Assembly: GCF_030247195.1 (NCBI RefSeq)
Contig: NC_080671.1
Coordinates: 85,868,370 to 85,932,369, forward strand
DNA: 64,000 bases
Origin: Topomyia yanbarensis
Taxonomy: Eukaryota > Arthropoda > Insecta > Diptera > Culicidae
Direction of reading: 5' to 3'
Shown: positions 19,145-60,740 of the stretch, piece by piece
Position numbering within the stretch: the stretch's first letter is position 1
How the letters are laid out: every line of letters begins with the position of its first letter
Translations under genes and position numbers: made by a program
Notes under the pieces: generated by a model
Seen by the model: the letters and a program-made list of their open reading frames with translations, nothing else
What the model was told of the DNA's origin: nothing
Databases searched by the model: none

Positions 19145-19279
19145 CTACGGTTAACGCAAAATGTGGTTAGCACTAGTGAATAGATTTTCAGTCTAGACCG
19201 AGGGGACGCGAGGTAACTAAATGATTGTCAATCAATCACCGGGGTTCCCTTCAGCTCAACGTTGACTTCACTAACTAAC

Positions 19280-19713
19280 CTCTTTGGGGTAGGTGTTGGG
19301 CGACAGACAGGCGTGAATAACCTGAACATTGGACCGGAAGGCATTCTGTTTGCGGAGGGAGAAATATTTTCGTGGATCAGGTTCGACCAGATATCCGCCC
19401 CAGTTCATCGTTTCCGCCAGCCACGGTGCGGTCATCATCGAATCGCTGATGCCGGTTAGCGACTGGAAGAACGTTCCGAATTTTTTCTTCCCCAGCAGAT
19501 CGGAGACGAAACGTGCCATCTCTGGGGTCAGCTCGTGCCGGTTGGTAAAGTTCAAATGTTCCACCGGAGCGTTAGCATTTCGCATGAAGGTCATCGGGTA
19601 CTTTTTCATGTGGATGTCTCGAACGTATTTCACCAGCGCCGGGTTGTCCTGGGGGACGCCCATCAGGTCGTAGTCGCGGGACATGTTCAGTCGAAACTGT
19701 TGATGTCGAATTT
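19280..19713 (-). CDS. Star: Star, exon coding for start of the lumenal domain
   Basis: The exon starts after TTTCTTTTCAG, with two bases completing a split codon, then 144 codons to a GAG/GTTAGT donor at 19280. It reads RHQQFRLNMSRDYD near the start, then HMKKYPMTFMRN and SLTGISDSMMTAPWLAE, ending with SPNTYPKE. These are strongly conserved features of Star proteins just after the transmembrane segment. A Met follows a few codons in, but the acceptor and the conserved residues before it show this is an internal exon and not the gene start. The membrane anchor and cytoplasmic N-terminus must be on exon(s) further upstream (higher coordinates), which I did not find in the window. Confidence 0.87.
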
Positions 19714-20605
19714 CTGAAAAGAAACAAAAATGACGAAATATGGTTATGAGGGTTGCTTTGAGCGTGTTACTTTTTTTTCGACACAAGGTTCGTGCCAATT
19801 GACCGCGCACTTATCGCCTCAAGATCTGGTTCTTTTGCGACAGAAAAAAACATGAACAAATTAATTATTAGCGACCGGCCCAGAGCATTTTTCTTTCTTT
19901 CCAGCAATTGCCGTCTGGCCTGTAGATGCTGAATTAAATAAATAGTAATGTAATTACGGGCATATCCACTAACCGGCTTAGCCGTGTTTGTACGGTCGAA
20001 CCACATCAAGCGTATCTAAATAGGTAATCTAACCTTAGTAAATATCGATGGTGAACTCCAGTGTACTCGACTGGACGGTGGAGTGTTGCGAATTTACATC
20101 AGACCTACATTTAGAGTAATCGTTGCCACCCACACCTAATGAGCAGTCGCACGAATGGGACATCCACATTTAATTTAGATTATGTTCGATAGGTTAAATC
20201 AATTGAAAACTTTTCCGTAGTTGGAATAAGTTATATTTGATCCAGTCCTAACCTAGTAACATGTTCCGGTGGAAGTCAATTCATTTTATAATTTATTTCA
20301 CACTCAACACAATAACAGCACAATAGGTACCTAACACTTTAAAATGCCTAATAATCAGCTTTAGCGCTACCCTACATAAATGGTAAGCCAAGTCTCAATA
20401 TACCTTTGCCCAGCTGCTAGCGGCCAGTCGAAGGTTCGAGCAGCAGATATAAGAAAACTTTAGAACCTCGAACATCGTTATTCATTTGATAAGGTTCAGC
20501 GTGATGTGCGGAAGGAACACAAAACTGCGCTAAGCGCCAAAAATACGTTACATCCTCTCTTCAAGTTCTAATTATTTTTCGTCGGCTTTTTTCCGCTACG
20601 AGGTC
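19714..20605. other. No gene seen
   Basis: Upstream of the Star exon at 19713, this is intronic. I found no exon coding for the missing Star membrane segment here. Confidence 0.5.
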
Positions 20606-40202: not shown

Positions 40203-42527
40203 TTTTTTTTTTAATCGGATGCAAATTGCTCCTAAATCACATACTATTCAATCATGCAAAGAATCGATAGATAATTTTTGCTATCAATTTTCGCTCCTAG
40301 GTTCTCACGATGCACTTATTGTTGCAACCAGCAGCCATATTTTAGTGTATTTCTATGGTTTCCTATTAATGTCAAATTTAGTTTTAATATGACCTAACAA
40401 TACAGCGAACAGTCGTCGATAGGCAACCACGGAGAGCGACTAAAATGTTGTAACTGGTTGAATCTATAAGTCAATAAGTTGGGACAAACGTTTCGATTTC
40501 ATGTATTCAATATTGACATTCACTCGTTTTACATTTCTTAGAAATGAATAGAATATATATACTTATATATCAATCGACTCAGCTCGACGATTTGGGACAA
40601 TGTGTGTGTGTGTGGCTGTGTGTGTATGTAATGGACAAACTCTCATTCGTGTTTCTCAGCAATGGCTGAACCGCTCTTATCCAAATCCAATTTTAAAAAT
40701 CACCCAGACAGAACGCTATTGAATGGTTTTTGATTCTGATGTTTAGTTTCCAAGATAGGAATGTTTGAAGGCGCAAAAATCGCGTTTTTGGTAGTTTTTG
40801 GAAATTTTCTTGTCGAAATTGACGACGTAACTAAACAATTCATATTATTTTAGAAAGCTTATACGAATACCATTCGAACGAACTATAAATTGTTGAAACT
40901 ATTATTATCGGACTATTATCAAAAGAGATATTTACCATTAAATGCGGACGAAAGATTTTTATTATTTCCCATAGCCAGAAATAAGACCAAAAACATTCAA
41001 TGTATTGTTAGCGCCAAAACGGATAATTTTAGGTCAATAGTATCTTCGGGGAATTTAAAGCATACAATATGCCCTTTCTTTTGGTGTTGTGATTTTACTG
41101 AATAATCCCCCTAAGAATAAGATATTTTCATAAATTTACTTGGAAGTGATTGTATTGAAATAATGCCTTCAGCAAATTTGTAGCTCTTACATTTGTGAAT
41201 AACTTTACTGAAGGCATCAAATACATATTTCGAATACTTTAAAAGTTATGGCTTGTTGTTTGTGGATTACCCTTTGTCGCCTATGTATTGTTCAATATAC
41301 TAATAATACATTTAAATAAGCCAAATATTATTTCGATAAAACGAATTTCGTATTTCATTTTTCTATCTACAACCGCTAGAATAACCACCGAACAATGCCA
41401 AGTTGTCTAGATGGAACTTGATCACTTATCGGTGCAAAAATTTTCATTTGCGCGAATCTTCTGACTTATAACCATCGGATCGATCTGAAACATATCTCGA
41501 AAAATGAAAAGCGAAATGAATAACTCCAAGCAGTAGTGTAGCCAAGAGGATGCTTTGTGGTTTAACCACCCCCTCCCCTCTCACCCAAAAAGAAATAATT
41601 GGATTGAAGTTAAAAATTAATTGATGCTGACTGATTTAAATCAATATTACAATAATAATTATCTGATCAGTACATTGATAACCTGTTGTTTGAAACATCA
41701 TGAGGACCTTTGAAAAATTGTGGGAATGCGATCCTGATCTGTAACTGATCTATCTCACAGTTGTCGAATAACATCAATATCAAATACTTGTCTAAAAACA
41801 CTCCAATAGAAACTCATTCCAGAGTTCTGAAATCAATCATAATCATAATCATAATTTCCTATCATAATGAGTTCAGTTTTGAAGGGGTGTACTGTAATAT
41901 GGATTAGGGTCTTTTTTAATGGGAAGCGAAACTGGAATTACTTTAATGTCTATGAAACTTAGAACTGCTCACCAAAAAATTGCATAATTTCCAACATTTG
42001 CTGAAAATGTTTTTATTTTGGGAATGCGTCGAGTTGAGACGAAAACGTTATAGAATTATTAACGAGAAAACCACCTACCAAAAGTAGGGGAAATAATGAA
42101 AAATGTCGTTTTCCGTTCCGCCAATTTCGCAGGTTTAGTATCTTCGATGAATTTTACAAACTTAAACAGCACACCAATTGATTAATCAATTTTGACGTTA
42201 TATCCTCCAAAAAGTATTTATGGCAAATTTACTCTTCAAACTAATTTAGTTCCAGACTTAATGTCTTCAGCAAAATTTTGGGGAATGCTATTACAAACCA
42301 CTTTGTTGAAGACATGAAGGCTCCATGTGTTCAAGGTATTAACATATTTTAGGCTATTTCTATTTAATTTTGAATTAAATTATTATGATTTTACTGTTTA
42401 TGATATCTTTGCTATTGTTTATAAACGATAAAATATTTTATCCAAAGTTTGAGTTTGTGAAGCTCACAATAGAAAGTTATTTTAGAAAACAAAAACTAGA
42501 TTAAGGAACACTTCGTAAATAGCATTG

Positions 42528-43427
42528 CACAGTGGTCCAGATCGCTAATTTAGGAGGAATTTTTACTTTCTGACAAACCTGTATAATTTAGCCGTATCAT
42601 GTCTTAGGATGAATTTGTGTACTTTAGAAGATGCTTCTTTTTATTGGAATAGTTATTAGGGTGGTTCTAATTTATCTAAAATACGAAAATAAACTTTTTA
42701 CTGATGAAAGATAGAGCTCCACAGTCTTCCACAAAGTTGTAAAGTAACTTATTTTGAATAAATTTGTTGAACATATTAAAGCCTTATCTCTTTTAGTTTT
42801 TGTTATACAAGAAATTTAAAAAAAAAGATTAGGGTGTTCCTGAAAAAAACGTTTTTTTAGTATAACTTTCGTATCTTTTATTTTTTGTTAACACAACCTT
42901 TGAACAGCTTATTGAAAACTTCAAGCCGAGTATTTTTCTCCAAGACACCGAAGGTCTAACTTTTTTCTTTAAAAAGTTATGGACACTTTTCGTTAAAAAA
43001 ATAGCCTATTTCAAGGCTCAATATCGCTGATGCGGGCACCTAAAATTGAATTCTGTTTCCACCACATGAAAGACCATACTTATTAGTATATTTGAGCAAA
43101 AATTGGCGAATACGATATTTTTTTAAAATTTGCAATTTAGATTTAAAGTTTGTAGTTTTGCAGGTTCAACGCATTAAAGCATTTACACACATATCGTTGT
43201 ATTATGAAAAAAGCCACTTTCAAATATCATTCTCTCATCGCAGCAAGCTTTGCATAAGTGAAACGACTGTCAAAAAAGGTTTCTGATTTTATTCGTTTTA
43301 AATAAAACTAGTAAATATGGATATTAGTCGAAGAGAGTTGGCGAATTTGCTTATTGCTGGTAAAAAGACAGATGAACTGCTTAAGTTCATTACAAGTAGT
43401 AATCCAAATGTAAAATTGAGACTTGTT
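42528..43427 (+). repeat. Transib left terminal inverted repeat, about 900 bp
   Basis: The repeat starts with heptamer CACAGTG and runs through the non-coding leader, the presumed transposase promoter, the ATG at 43317 and about 37 codons. The ATG sits 789 bp from the end, exactly as in the right arm, so the arms have no net indel over that length. It contains several poly-T/poly-A runs and no ORF apart from the gene start. Confidence 0.9.
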
Positions 43428-45373
43428 AGTGCTCGGAAGAAAATAAAAATCTTCATGTTGGAATTTAGAAGGTTGTGGATTCGGAGTAAGCGCACGCAAA
43501 TTCGGTTTGAGCTGGAAAATTTTGTGTGGCTTGAAGGAAAGCTAAGATTCGAAGTCGAAGGTAAAGGTAAAGGCCGAAAGAGGAAACCATTTTCCGAAAT
43601 ATGTCGCAGAGCCAAAATAAAAAGATTAGGAAAGTTGCGCGATAAGTATTCCACGGAAGAACTTGGTTTAGCGTCAGCCGTCAACGCTAATTCTACTGGT
43701 TTCCGTTTAGTTGGCAGACAAATCGCACGATTGTCGAAAAGTCCCGTCAGATCTACCGTAGAGAATTTAGGATCTATGGCTGTCCCGATTGCAGAAGCGT
43801 TTACTGCGGAGGAGGCACTTAGATTTATTTGTGAAAATGATTTTTCTAAGGCGCAGTACCAAAACATACGCAGCTCAGTTATGCAGAAGGGTTTGGACAT
43901 TTATCCCGCGTATAATAAAATAGTAGAAGAAAAGAAACTATGCTATCCGATCGGTATGTACTATTCTCAAAGATTCGTCCCTGAATCAACAGTTTTTTTC
44001 AGGAATTTCTGTTCAGCCTTCTTGTGCGTATGTTCCCCTTCAAGCTCTTGTTAACCATACCGTGGAACGACTCATCTCGTTTCTGAATATTGGAGTTCTA
44101 CCACTGCATCCTGAGGATAATACGTTTGTTATCTTTAAGTGGGGCTGCGATGGAAGCAGCAACCATTCCCGGTAGGCAACATTATTTTTCTTCTAAACTT
44201 TGACTGACAGTCTCTTTTCCACTTGAACATAGATACAAGCAAATGTGCGTTGACGAAGATGAAAATGGAGAACTATTCGAGTATAACGATTCGCATATAT
44301 TTGCTCTATCTATAGTACCTTTACGTGTAGTTAGTCGCCGGAAAGATGAGTCAAGAGATTGCATTCTTTGGAATAATGATTTTCCATCTTCAGTATCCCT
44401 GTGCCGACCAGTTAAATTAATTTTCAAGAAGGAAAATCCTGAACTAACAAAGGATGAAGTTGCCGCGATGAACAAGCAAATCGATGAATTAGTCCCGACT
44501 ATAGTAAATGTTAATATGCGCAAGATTCCGATTAGTTCAAGCTTCATATTTTCCATGGTTGATACGAAGGTAGTGAATGACGTAACAGGCACACCGTCTC
44601 AAGCGTGTTATATATGCAAACGCTCCGGAAAGCGATTGAATGATCCTTTACTGGAAGCCAGCGATCCACCGGATAGTTTATATGTTTTTTCACCTTTACA
44701 TGCATTAATACGAGCAATGGAGTTACTATTGAATATTGCTTACCGTTTAGCTCTAGCAAAACCGCGTTGGCGCGTAGGCAAAAATACCAGCGAGCTTAAG
44801 GAACGACAAATAAAAATTCGACAAGCGTTACGTGACCGTTTAGGTCTTCGTATTAGCGAACCTTTGCCAGGTGGCGGAAATTCTAACGATGGTAACACAG
44901 CTCGAAAATTTTTCAGAAACCGAGATGTCGTTGCAGAAGAAACCGGGTTGGACGAAATGTTGCTAGAACGTATGTATGTGCTATTAACAATCATCAACAG
45001 CAAATTGGGAATTAACGCGGATGCTTACCGGAGTTACGCCGAAGATACACGATTGCTTTATGTACGCCTGTATGGTTGGTACGCTCTCTCACCAACCGTG
45101 CATAAACTCCTGGTCCATGGAGGAAGCATTATTCAACATAACATGCTGCCAGTAGGTATGTGCAGTGAAGAAGTTCAAGAAACCAGGAATAAAAGTATTC
45201 GCAGATTCCGAGAATTCCACGCACGCAAATTCGATCGACTCGTCAATCTTGATGACGTTTTCAAGAGACTTCTTGTTTCATCAGATCCTATAATTTCTCT
45301 TAAATGTAAACGTCGAATTCAACGAGCACCGCTGGATATACCTGAAAATGCAATGCATCTACTTTTGAATTAA
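43317..45373 (+). CDS. Transib transposase, intact, two short introns
   Basis: Three exons are proposed: 43317-43953, 44003-44171 and 44233-45373, giving 648 residues. Intron 1 (49 bp) has GTATGT...TTTTTTTCAG; intron 2 (61 bp) has GTAGGC...AACATAG. Without splicing the gene looks like two ORFs, but the missing middle encodes FKWGCDGSSNHSR, which carries the first catalytic Asp (D262). The second Asp is in FSMVDTKVV (D379) and the Glu in VQETRNK (E585), aligning with the RAG1 DDE triad. The zinc-binding pair C394/C397 (CYIC) and H559/H564 (HKLLVH) also match RAG1. The C-terminal stretch with RRFREFHARK corresponds to RAG1 RRFRKMNARQ. The element codes for cut-and-paste transposition acting on its own ends. 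The start codon lies inside the left inverted repeat. AATAAA lies 10 bp after the stop. Confidence 0.92.
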
Positions 45374-45524
45374 TTGGCATTGAATAAATTCTCCTTATAT
45401 AAATCATAAATTGTTGTCATAGCCAAATTATTTTTAATGAACACATTCTGTATTGTTGATATGTAAGCAAAACAGAAAAGGAAATACAAAGGCTTTAGGC
45501 AATTTCTTTTATGTCGCTATGCGA

Positions 45525-45810
45525 TAAAATTTAAAACTTTGGTTAGTAAATTTAAAATTACATGCTTAAAAAAAATAATATTTTCCAATTTTTGCTCAAA
45601 TATACTTAAAAGTATGTTCTTTTCTATGGTTCAATCCGAACTTACTTTTATTTGCCCCAATCAGAGATAATGACATTTGAAAAAGGGCTATTTATGAGCG
45701 AAAAGTTTCCATAACTTTTGAAAGTATAAAGTTAGACTTTCAGAGTTATGAAAAAACGTGGATTGAAGTTTTCTAAAAGCTGTTCAAAGGTTGTTTTAAC
45801 AAAATATAAA
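45525..45810 (-). repeat. Older diverged copy of an internal TIR segment
   Basis: Reading leftward from 45810, the bases follow the same order as the inner part of the terminal repeat (AACAACCTTTGAACAGCTT, later TATATTTGAGCAAAAATTGG) but with roughly a quarter to a third of positions changed. The right end of the Transib therefore holds two successive versions of the repeat, an inner diverged one and an outer fresh one. Confidence 0.75.
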
Positions 45811-45937
45811 ATTTCTTTCGAACATTAACAAGTCTCAATTTTACATTTGGATTACTACTTGTAATGAACTTAAGCAGTTCATCTGTCTTTTTACCAGCAA
45901 TAAGCAAATTCGCCAACTCTCTTCGACTAATATCCAT
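45773..45937 (-). CDS. 54-codon truncated copy of the transposase N-terminus
   Basis: Because the right inverted repeat includes the gene start, it carries an ATG at 45937 reading leftward. Its first 37 residues (MDISRRELANLL...) are identical to the transposase. It then departs into unrelated sequence and stops at 45773-45775. The upstream 789 bp equals the sequence upstream of the real gene, so if that sequence is a promoter this copy should be transcribed too, antisense to the 3' end of the transposase gene. Whether any protein is made or matters is unknown; it may be a passive by-product of arm copying. Confidence 0.6.
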   Translation of the reverse strand: MDISRRELANLLIAGKKTDELLKFITSSNPNVKLRLVNVRKKFYILLKQPLNSF

Positions 45938-46726
45938 ATTTACTAGTTTTATTTAAAACAAATAAAATCAGAAAACTTTTTTGACAGTCGTTTCACTTAT
46001 GCAAAGCTTGCTGCGATGAGAGAATGATATTTGAAAGTGGCTTTTTTCATAATACAACGATATGTGTGTAAATGCTTTAATGCGTTGAACCTGCAAAACT
46101 ACAAACTTTAAATCTAAATTGCAAATTTTAAAAAAATATCGTATTCGCCAATTTTTGCTCAAATATACTAATAAGTATGGTCTTTCATGTGGTGGAAACA
46201 GAATTCAATTTTAGGTGCCCGCATCAGCGATATTGAGCCTTGAAATAGGCTATTTTTTTAACGAAAAGTGTCCATAACTTTTTAAAGAAAAAAGTTAGAC
46301 CTTCGGTGTCTTGGAGAAAAATACTCGGCTTGAAGTTTTCAATAAGCTGTTCAAAGGTTGTGTTAACAAAAAGTAAAAGATACGAAAGTTATACTAAAAA
46401 AACGTTTTTTTCAGGAACACCCTAATCTTTTTTTTTAAATTTCTTGTATAACAAAAACTAAAAGAGATAGAGCTTTAATATGTTCAACAAATTTATTCAA
46501 AATAAGTTACTTTACAACTTTGTGGAAGACTGTGGAGCTCTATCTTTCATAAGTAAAAAGTTTATTTTCGTATTTTAGATAAATTAGAACCACCCTAATA
46601 ACTATTCCAATAAAAAGAAGCATCTTCTAAAGTACACAAATTCATCCTAAGACATGATACGGCTAAATTATACAGGTTTGTCAGAAAGTAAAAATTCCTC
46701 CTAAATTAGCGATCTGGACCACTGTG
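45827..46726 (-). repeat. Transib right terminal inverted repeat, about 900 bp
   Basis: This is the reverse complement of the left arm. Mismatches seen include one in the segment about 185 bp from the end, a two-base change in the AGCTC/GCCTT segment, and a few near the start codon (for example AAAGTTT against AAAGGTT). Homology stops inside the coding region, just after codon 37. Confidence 0.9.
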
Positions 46727-47599
46727 CATTGTATGACTCGATATACTCCATATACGTAGTATTTATGCCTACAATAAAGTTGTATTAAATGAAAATCTCA
46801 ACAAATTCGTGAAAGACAGGAACTCTGTTACAATTTTTTGAAAAACTGATTCTCCATAATTTTAAAACTTCAAAGATGGCAGTTTCGTAATTATGCCATT
46901 TGGACAAAAAGTGAGATTTTCACCAATCCCCACCCAACCGAATTTCTAACTACGCCGCTGACTTCAAGTAAGTGGAAACAAAGTCGTTCTACACTCGTCC
47001 ACAAGAAACTTCTTCGAATACTGCCTATCTCATTGAAGACCCGATTTGATCAGCCCCCAATTTTATCAGCCTCATATGAAAATATGTTTGATGTACTCTG
47101 GCAGACAAACAAGGGTAAATTTTAGTTAATCCTTTCTTGACCATATTTTCCTTATCTTAACATCGCGAAGCATCAAGTTCTAAATTTTCTCAATCGTTAT
47201 AATACCCGAAGAAAGCGATAAGAGCGAAATATATCATCACACTGTTAGGTGGATTAAAAGCGTTTTCTATAGAAAATTTACCATGCACGATTATGACACG
47301 CAATACAAATTTTGTCATCAATACACAGTACACACCTATGACACGTGTGAGTGCGACTTTTGTTTACATTTTTAGTAAAAACTCGCCACATAGTAAACCG
47401 TAAACTGAACTTCGTAATATTTGAGAGATTGATACAGAATAGATAGAAGCATCAATTGTCTTCTTTGAACTGCTTATACAAATTATCACTTTCAAGATAT
47501 TCAACTTCAAACTTTAAAAATCGTTTTTCTGGAAATGTGCTAAATAGCGCTTGTCGTAAGATAGCACAACAGCGGCGAAATGCCGATATCTGAGGTCAT

Positions 47600-58353: not shown

Positions 58354-59244
58354 TCATGGATTGGGAGGACGCCCGCGTGAATTCGCGTCTGGTACGCGTT
58401 TAGTCTGAGCTTGAATCGCGGTATCGAGAATCAAGCCAGCCAGGAACCCGTACTCTTCCTCCGGAGGAAGCTCTTGTGTCGATTCTACTTTTTCGGATAT
58501 CGCGGACGCGTAGCTCTTCCAATCAATATTTCGTGTGAGGTCATACGAAACATTGATTGTATTCGGTGGCCCTGAACCGTTAGCAATATTAATTACGATT
58601 GGCAGATGGTCGCTGCCGTGGGGATCAGAGACTACCTTCCACATGCAATCTAACCGCAGCGATGTCGAGCAGAGGGACAGGTCTAAGGCGCTCGGACGCG
58701 CTGGAGGGGCAGGAATCCGTGTCATTTCACCCGTATTCAAAATAGTCATATTGAAGTTGTCGCAAAGCTCATGGAGTAGGGTAGATCGATTATCGTCATG
58801 AAGGCAACCCCATGCCGTGCCGTGGGAGTTGAAGTCACCTAAAACTAGCCTCGGTGCGGGGAGGAGTTCCGCAATATCGCAAAGCCGTCGGTGGCTAACT
58901 GAGGCTCTAGGGGGGATGTAGGTGGAAGCAATGCAAATTCTGGTTTGGCAAGCGACAACTTCAATGCCTGGTGTCGAGGGGAGGTCGATCCGATTGAAAG
59001 AATAGCACTTTTTGATCCCCAAAAGTACTCCTCCGTAAGAGTCTTCTCGATCCAAGCGAATAATATTAAAATCGTGGAAGTGTAGGGTTATTTCTGAAGT
59101 GAGCCATGTCTCGCATAGGGCAAATGCATCGCATTTCAAATTATTTAGTAAGATTTTAAACGAATCGATTTTCGGGATAATGCTTCTGCAATTCCACTGT
59201 AGAACAGTGATTAAATCCTTGACCTCGTTCGATGAATTAGCCAT
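58354..59244 (-). pseudogene. LINE ORF2, endonuclease part only (truncated)
   Basis: The ATG at 59244 gives ITVLQWNCRSI, CETWLTS, LVLGDFNSHGTAWG and DPHGSDHLPI, the Asn, Glu, Asp/Asn and Ser-Asp-His blocks of an apurinic-type endonuclease, all present. Reading stops at 58354, just where the linker to RT (RGRPPNPWW-type) should continue; no RT follows. The ATG overlaps the ORF1 stop by 8 bases (ATGGCTAA), a usual arrangement in two-ORF LINEs of the jockey/I group. An upstream in-frame TTG at 59256 is not needed as a start. Confidence 0.85.
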
Positions 59245-60559
59245 CGAAGGATACAATCGCTGAAAGAAGGGGCCATTTCGCAGTGAACTGCATCAAAAAT
59301 GTTTTTACTGCGGGGAGAAAGCTTATCAAGATACTTTTAAGGGGGTCAGAAATGTTTAACGCTGTAAGAATACGGTCCACAATGTCAGAGAAATTTATTA
59401 AGCCAGCACTGTTTTCTTTCTCTGGCTGAGATATGGGAACACTTGGGGTTTTTGATGTTCCTGGAAGTGCTGGGAACTCCTTTTCTGAGCTCAGGTTACT
59501 GAGACCGTTAGCGACTTGCTTCGGTTTTGCACCAGTACTTCCTTGAGTAGTTATTTTAGGGGGACCATGAAGAGACACCTTCTGGCCTTTACGACGAAGC
59601 TTGGAAGAAGAAATGTTCTTCCTTTTTCTACTACTTCTAGGCACAGCAGAAGATGTTCCCTCCTGGGGTTCATCACAGTCGCCTTCGTCAGTAGACAAGT
59701 TGGTAAAGATGTTCGTAGAGACAGGTGGCGTAGCTATCTTAAGCATTTCTGCAAAAGATCGCTTAGAGCGTCCCTGAAGGGAACGCTTAAGATTTTCCTC
59801 GCGCTGTTTGTACGCGGGACATGAAGGGAGATCATGTGGGTTTCCCCCACAGTAGAGACACTTTTCGACATCTCTACCACAGGAATCATCCGCATGATTC
59901 CCACCGCATTTCCCACAGCGGGCTTTATTGCTACAATGGGAGGCTGTGTGTCCCAATTGTTTGCAATTAGTATAGTTCATGACCCGCGGCACAAAGAGGC
60001 GAACAGGTAGACGAACCTTGTCAAAGAGGAGGTAATTGGGCAGGGCAGAGCCGGCGAAGGTCACCCGATAAGAGTCTGAGTTGACGTATATTTTCTTGCC
60101 GTCAGCTGCGACTGATGCTGAATGCAAACGTTTGCATTCCAGTATCTTCACTGGCTTAAGCATGGGGTCTTTGAAACAGCCAGTCCCACATTTTAGCAGG
60201 TCCTCGCAATTCAGACTCGAATCGGAAACGACCCCACTGACTTCAACCCTGCTAGCTGGAATATAAACCCGGTACTCCTTCGTAAAGGGCTCGTAGCCAG
60301 CAATATCGTTTGCCTGAGTAGAACTGTTAACCACCACCCGAAGCTTATCAGGGCGAATTTTCGATATTTCTGTCACGGCCGAATACCGATCTGTCAGAAC
60401 TCGAGAAATCTGCAACAGATTCAAACACTTTTTTTCTTTGGTCCGGAAGAAGATCACAAATGGCCCGGTGGCCGAGCTCGGATATACCTTGAGCCGGGGA
60501 GCCGATTTTATTTCGACGTCCATCTCACCTTGAGATGAACCGCCGTCAGGGGAAGTCAT
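59237..60559 (-). CDS. LINE ORF1 nucleic-acid-binding protein, intact (440 aa)
   Basis: The open frame encodes a gag-like ORF1: an N-terminal part (residues 20-190) with alternating strands that looks RRM-like, then three zinc knuckles at about 196-209, 215-227 and 234-247, then a basic and Ser-rich stretch and a hydrophobic C-terminus (LKSILISFLPAVKTFLMQF). Knuckles 2 (CGKC...H...C) and 3 (CLYC...H...C) are complete. Knuckle 1 has Tyr196 where the first Cys is expected, a likely damaging change. ORF1 proteins bind the LINE RNA and help carry it to the nucleus. It is followed, with 8-base overlap, by the truncated ORF2. Family is jockey/I-like; I do not name it further. Confidence 0.85.
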   Translation of the reverse strand: MTSPDGGSSQGEMDVEIKSAPRLKVYPSSATGPFVIFFRTKEKKCLNLLQISRVLTDRYSAVTEISKIRPDKLRVVVNSSTQANDIAGYEPFTKEYRVYIPASRVEVSGVVSDSSLNCEDLLKCGTGCFKDPMLKPVKILECKRLHSASVAADGKKIYVNSDSYRVTFAGSALPNYLLFDKVRLPVRLFVPRVMNYTNCKQLGHTASHCSNKARCGKCGGNHADDSCGRDVEKCLYCGGNPHDLPSCPAYKQREENLKRSLQGRSKRSFAEMLKIATPPVSTNIFTNLSTDEGDCDEPQEGTSSAVPRSSRKRKNISSSKLRRKGQKVSLHGPPKITTQGSTGAKPKQVANGLSNLSSEKEFPALPGTSKTPSVPISQPEKENSAGLINFSDIVDRILTALNISDPLKSILISFLPAVKTFLMQFTAKWPLLSAIVSFDG

Positions 60560-60740
60560 TTTTGCACGGGCCTATTGCCCAGTGCACGTTATTAAGACAA
60601 CCAAGAAGGGGAAACGAAAACTAATACTTAGCTTGTGTATGTAACGGTATCCAGACGGCTTACTAAAAGAACACTGCTTCACTTCACTGACCGGCTAACG
60701 GTACTCAGAAACAGAAACACAAAAGAAGGGAAAAATAATG
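60560..60740 (-). promoter_or_regulatory. Probable 5' UTR and internal promoter of the LINE
   Basis: About 180 bp upstream of the ORF1 ATG contain CGGTCAGTGAAG, an initiator-like word, with no TATA box needed in such LINEs. The exact 5' end and target duplication were not located. Confidence 0.4.

Follow-up and report, generated by a model that had tools for sequence, protein, structure and literature searches.

An Apparently Recently Multiplied Transib Transposon Family with Long Near-Identical Arms and Evidence of Exchange between Them

Introduction

The superfamily definition in extracts of a 2015 paper (PMC4411706) gives Transib elements a single transposase gene and no RAG2-like gene, and the same extracts report that an autonomous Transib is typically present as a single copy or as a few copies at most, the cause not being understood. 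For Hztransib, the extracted description mentions a 5-bp target site duplication (TSD) and "long TIRs", like those of the element presented here, together with a reported TSD of GCTCG, unlike that of our element (PMC1852546). For Drosophila hopper and transib2, the published description as extracted gives a 5-bp TSD and the target CCANTGG, as in our element, and a table of that study contains 533 sites of hopper inserts in natural populations (PMC3276498). For one Drosophila simulans population, another study estimates that each genotype carries about 55 copies of transib2 (PMC7141027). Galileo of Drosophila is described as having arms that are long, variable and able to incorporate transposase sequence, with gap repair and template switching being invoked (PMC4168063), and arm conversion is described for a bacterial insertion sequence (PMC3004938). 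Of nine papers found on Transib, gene conversion and terminal inverted repeats, none appears to deal with Transib arms, judging by titles and abstract openings.

Here we describe a Transib element from a 64-kb window of Topomyia yanbarensis DNA (the whole stretch that was analysed). We consider it very likely that the element belongs to an autonomous cut-and-paste family which multiplied recently and moved until very recently, perhaps still moving, that its arms have been kept alike by one arm templating the other, and that faulty repair has given rise to derivatives moved in trans.

Results and Discussion

Structure of the Element

The features of the locus, in positions of the window, are as follows.

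42523..42527, no strand: left target site duplication, CATTG
42528..46726, plus strand: Transib element, 4199 bp
42528..43442, plus strand: 5' arm, about 915 bp, starting with CACAGTG and including the transposase start codon; 901 bp free of mismatches in the majority sequence
42876..43145, plus strand: stretch of the 5' arm (arm positions 349-618) with a diverged second inverted copy at 45547-45811 (77% over 272 columns)
43317..43953, plus strand: transposase exon 1, starting inside the 5' arm
43954..44002, plus strand: intron 1, 49 bp, GT-AG, splicing predicted from the open product
44003..44171, plus strand: transposase exon 2, carrying the putative catalytic Asp262
44172..44232, plus strand: intron 2, 61 bp, GT-AG, splicing predicted from the open product
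44233..45373, plus strand: transposase exon 3 and stop, with putative catalytic Asp379 and Glu585, and Cys394, Cys397, His559 and His564
45547..45811, minus strand: older 3' arm remnant, 77% to arm positions 349-618
45773..45937, minus strand: mirror open reading frame in the 3' arm, 54 aa, predicted from sequence; its first 37 aa equal the transposase N-terminus exactly
45812..46726, minus strand: 3' arm, about 915 bp, inverted copy of the 5' arm, ending with CACTGTG
46727..46731, no strand: right target site duplication, CATTG

The span given in the initial annotation (42523..46731) consists of the element plus both CATTG duplications. That annotation had read the locus as a complete Transib with a perfect 5-bp TSD, near-identical arms and an unbroken transposase after splicing, and it was right on each count: CATTG is present on both sides of the CACAGTG and CACTGTG ends, the two arms of the window copy mismatch at 6 of the first 901 positions, and the three exons, when spliced at the GT-AG introns, encode an uninterrupted protein of 648 residues. 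The six arm differences are private to this copy, being absent from the other 34 aligned copies (see below). The termini are heptamer-like (CAC...GTG), and the right end is altered in one of 35 copies (L027).

The transposase gene is the only one of the element, without a RAG2-like ORF, and no other ORF of at least 150 aa was found within the element except on the strand opposite exon 1. Inspection of the element by eye revealed no V(D)J-like nonamer, and a blastn search (E up to 0.01) found no further pieces of the element elsewhere in the 64-kb window. Since the start codon and the first 37 codons of the transposase lie inside the arm, the 3' arm has a mirror start with a 54-codon frame; inward transcription from the 3' arm (45773-45937, minus strand) would yield antisense RNA or a 54-aa N-terminal peptide. 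Elsewhere in the window, by eye, two overlapping long ORFs (58354-60571, minus strand) are reminiscent of a non-LTR retrotransposon, namely of its gag-like and endonuclease regions, and a 179-aa ORF (19271-19810, minus strand) resembles an exon of a host gene and not a repeat.

Transposase Identity and Relatives

The relationship to Transib and RAG1 that the initial annotation proposed to verify by alignment is borne out, weakly on the RAG1 side. In a phmmer search against solved structures, residues 161-626 of the transposase matched PDB entry 6pqn with E = 7.7e-82; the entry is named as a DNA-mediated transposase, and we take it to be the HzTransib transposase of Helicoverpa zea. The same search matched vertebrate RAG1 chains with E = 0.00088 at best, and Pfam found RAG1 in the transposase at E = 4.2e-6 and in one of three relatives.

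A protein search gave 52 relatives among 7996 candidates scored, the best with 49% identity over 99%. The nearest named proteins are AAEL003578 of Aedes aegypti (55% identity over 64% of the query) and a Transib-like protein of Culex quinquefasciatus (59% over 41%), and a quick 53-row tree places the transposase in a ten-row clade with the Aedes aegypti and Culex quinquefasciatus proteins (SH-aLRT 100). The DDE triad (D262, D379, E585) and the CxxC...HxxxxH zinc residues (C394, C397, H559, H564) are present and conserved. Among the 52 database hits, D262 is kept in 48 (4 gaps), D379 in 50, E585 in 46 (4 gaps), and C394 and C397 in all. Relatives of the long exon were not found in viral contigs (six pattern stretches, none confirmed).

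Judged from transposase homology, the DDE and zinc residues, the 5-bp TSD, the heptamer-like ends and the single gene, the element is a member of the Transib superfamily; the pair of RAG1L and RAG2L genes that marks RAG-like elements (ProtoRAG/TransibSU) is not present. It is a new family within a known superfamily, ordinary in kind and unusual in copy number and arm dynamics.

Copy Number in the Genome

A 32-bp end pattern with up to 3 mismatches matched the genome 870 times (431 + 439; reversed control 0), and these 870 ends correspond to about 435 elements. A 40-base exon-2 pattern matched 277 times (135 + 142; reversed control 0), which is an undercount, because the 5-bp exon 2 deletion of the type seen in L074 falls inside the search pattern. 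An intronless subfamily with open frames of about 680-690 aa had been considered and was dropped; L074, the one member fetched, is an ordinary copy with that deletion.

On chromosome C1, 88 of the 100 exact-end matches listed could be paired by position into 44 elements, leaving 12 single; 16 of the 44 are 4179-4201 bp long, and several shorter size classes recur. Two derivatives of 2924 and 2923 bp (G000:C1:87703505 and 87714844) lie about 11 kb apart, perhaps through local duplication.

For comparison of copies, we used the 35 full-length copies that scored best of 1088 candidates in a DNA search of the source genome, a choice biased to young copies. The transposase is open, with splice sites and DDE, in 28 of these 35. 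The initial annotation had singled out the window copy as an intact element standing out on its own; the intactness stands and the singularity does not, given about 435 elements and 28 open genes among the 35 best-scoring copies.

Target Site and Insertion Sites

Perfect 5-bp TSDs flank 29 of the 35 copies (the others being L004, L006, L009, L013, L025 and L027), and 15 of 15 elements in a chromosome C1 sample for which exact 32-bp ends were the sole criterion (the 15 end pairs at the head of the list, one of which is a locus also counted among the 35). In 19 of the 29 perfect cases the TSD reads CANTG, in eight it is one base off and in two it is two bases off; against the CANTG frequency of the window, the binomial estimate is 3e-40. 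C and G are favoured beside the TSD, giving the target cCANTGg, and CANTG is duplicated in 11 of the 14 further C1 copies.

The window copy sits within another repeat, the joined flanks of which were spanned, without the element, in 40 of 40 scored places (of 1491 candidates) at 90-92% identity. Empty paralogous sites which read across one target copy were also seen for L005 (88%) and L011 (77%) against their own flanks, and for L020, L023 and L030 (74-78%) against repeats in the window. These five sites support clean insertion, and the empty site of L004 suggests that one duplicated base was lost there. L009 is flanked by the unlike 5-mers CATTG and CAATG, which are reverse complements of each other; this could mean that the copy has recombined or been inverted. 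The right flank of L003 and of L028 contains another CACTGTG and then CAC 9 bp away, as if each copy had landed in the end of a different Transib-like element.

Derivatives

Shorter forms of the element are dispersed as well. Class A (L060, L067, L068 and L069; 28 places genome-wide, control 0) has a 1445-bp internal deletion of majority positions 988-2432 or 986-2430, the ends of which share 2 bp, while class B (L070, L071 and also L046; 19 places genome-wide, control 0) is a 3169-bp fold-back of two 3' halves. A second 3'-3' fold-back, L036, differs from these in its breakpoints; L066 is a 452-bp miniature and L073 a 2531-bp form. All ten derivatives examined at both ends (L036, L060 and L066-L073, picked by exact ends) have perfect 5-bp duplications, and L070 and L071 are identical over 3169 bp with different TSDs. 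Since the derivatives examined are without an intact transposase gene or without most of it, their mobilisation presumably relied on transposase supplied from elsewhere.

Age and Recent Movement

Copies above 99% identity, which the initial annotation had proposed as a sign of recent activity, are numerous. The 35 best-scoring copies lie on average 7.3 substitutions per 4199 bp (0.17%) from the majority, and 157 of their 201 variable columns are single-copy; the 14 further C1 copies, chosen only by their ends, give 82 substitutions in 37,284 aligned bp (0.22%). With a fly-like mutation rate of about 3e-9 per site per generation, the average copy would be very roughly 0.6-0.7 million generations old.

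More recent events can be recognised among the 35 copies as twins with different flanks and TSDs. L028 and L034 do not differ from each other and exclusively share 11 changes, L029 and L032 have two differences and seven exclusive changes, and L031 and L035 two differences and 11 exclusive changes. Such near-identity at different sites supports recent movement. Codon 106 is a stop in both L029 and L032, which points to probable movement of a defective copy in trans, by transposase from elsewhere, although conversion between copies could in principle account for the shared stop.

It seems rather unlikely that the family is recently dead, i.e., that the burst is over and its near-identical copies are now immobile. 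What speaks for this is that coding changes are neutral in pattern (67 of 85, i.e., 79%, nonsynonymous, with 76% expected), and the copies therefore decay after insertion, that 7 of the 35 carry premature stops, and that a mean divergence of about 0.2% means most insertions are not brand new. However, the twins at different sites, including the identical 3169-bp fold-backs, indicate that the latest movements detected long postdate the main burst. We thus favour recent multiplication with movement that went on until very recently and may continue, as the similarity of these copies suggests. A caution against ready claims of activity comes from a proteomic study of Aedes aegypti Aag2 cells, in which no Transib protein was detected, although other Transibs were concerned there (PMC5248466).

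Arms and Inter-Arm Conversion

In the majority sequence, 901 of 901 arm positions are identical, the match fading near 915. Fourteen symmetric changes, i.e., the same change at mirrored positions of both arms in the same copy, occur in 9 of the 35 copies. Re-pairing arms between copies gave a mean of 0.31 (none of 10,000 shuffles reached 14), and register shifts of 1-3 gave zero. The excess argues that the arms copy each other, and gene conversion between arms is supported by this pattern. Ten of the 14 alleles were found in one copy only and the other four in two to five copies, so not all 14 need be conversions within a copy. We also weighed the inner remnant as a donor converting both arms and rejected it, since the variant is unlike the base of the remnant in all eight symmetric changes at which the remnant aligns.

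An old 1650-bp copy, L072, has the same junction of remnant and 3' arm as the majority, and its own arms differ from each other at 49 of 632 columns; compared with the majority over these columns, it has 16 and 32 one-sided arm changes, one column changed differently in each arm and nine changes common to both. Taken with the identical arms of the majority, this would mean that the arm duplication is old and that the arms of the active lineage have been kept alike, an argument built on one old copy and on the assumption of similar mutation rates.

Alternatively, a single duplication might have placed a copy of the 5' end at the 3' end shortly before the burst, the arms having exchanged nothing since; the identity of the majority arms over 901 bp agrees with this, as does the older 77% remnant just inside the 3' arm, which is expected if a new end was added. 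We find this improbable in view of the 14 symmetric changes within copies, ten of them with alleles found in a single copy, and of the diverged arms at the same junction in L072. Equally improbable as a full account is an assembly or polishing artefact in which one arm was written over the other: near-perfect 915-bp repeat arms are hard for short reads, and the symmetric changes could in part have such an origin, but most arm changes are one-sided (86 of 114 substitutions lie outside symmetric pairs) and L072 independently indicates long-term homogeneity of the arms.

Proposed Mechanism and Significance

For the autonomous, recently mobile family that we prefer, the following steps would apply. 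The RAG1-like transposase would bind the CACAGTG ends and excise the element, its catalysis being predicted from homology, and insertion would take place at cCANTGg with 5 bp duplicated, the target and the duplication being those observed at the copies. During repair, presumably of the gap left after excision, one 915-bp arm would be copied into the other. Faulty repair of this kind would most likely produce the internally deleted and the 3'-3' fold-back derivatives, the fold-backs dispersed at 19 places probably having arisen by repair similar to arm copying, and intact copies would then mobilise such derivatives in trans.

To hypothesize further, inter-arm copying may regularly accompany Transib transposition, with the opposite arm often being the template after RAG-like hairpin excision, which would keep 0.9-kb arms identical over the long term and continually yield 3'-3' fold-backs that are good substrates themselves. 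We put this forward tentatively, as a conjecture that may well fail; if true, the generation of fold-backs would help explain the rise of the family to about 435 copies. With 277 exon-2 copies, and a transposase gene that is open in 28 of the best-scoring 35, the family offers abundant natural material for studying a RAG1 relative, namely its target rule, presumed failed repairs and presumably trans-mobilised derivatives. Two questions become testable with it, namely what limits the copy number of Transibs and whether RAG-type excision leads to arm-templated repair.

Comparison with Known Systems

The transposase of HzTransib (Helicoverpa zea; 6pqn) is homologous to that of our element across the catalytic core, although HzTransib is a different family, and its solved chain has 497 residues compared with 648 in the product described here. 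The likeness of Drosophila hopper and transib2 to our element consists of the target motif and the TSD length and is drawn from their published description. The Aedes aegypti (AAEL003578) and Culex quinquefasciatus proteins differ from our transposase in 41-45% of aligned residues, and by eye these records contain unrelated parts or miss parts. Galileo belongs to the P superfamily and has mostly 7-bp TSDs, so it resembles our element in behaviour only. With respect to vertebrate RAG1 and its recombination signals, the heptamer of the element, CACAGTG, is the canonical V(D)J heptamer, whereas the two ends of the element are alike and not of the 12/23 kind, and the element has no RAG2-like ORF.
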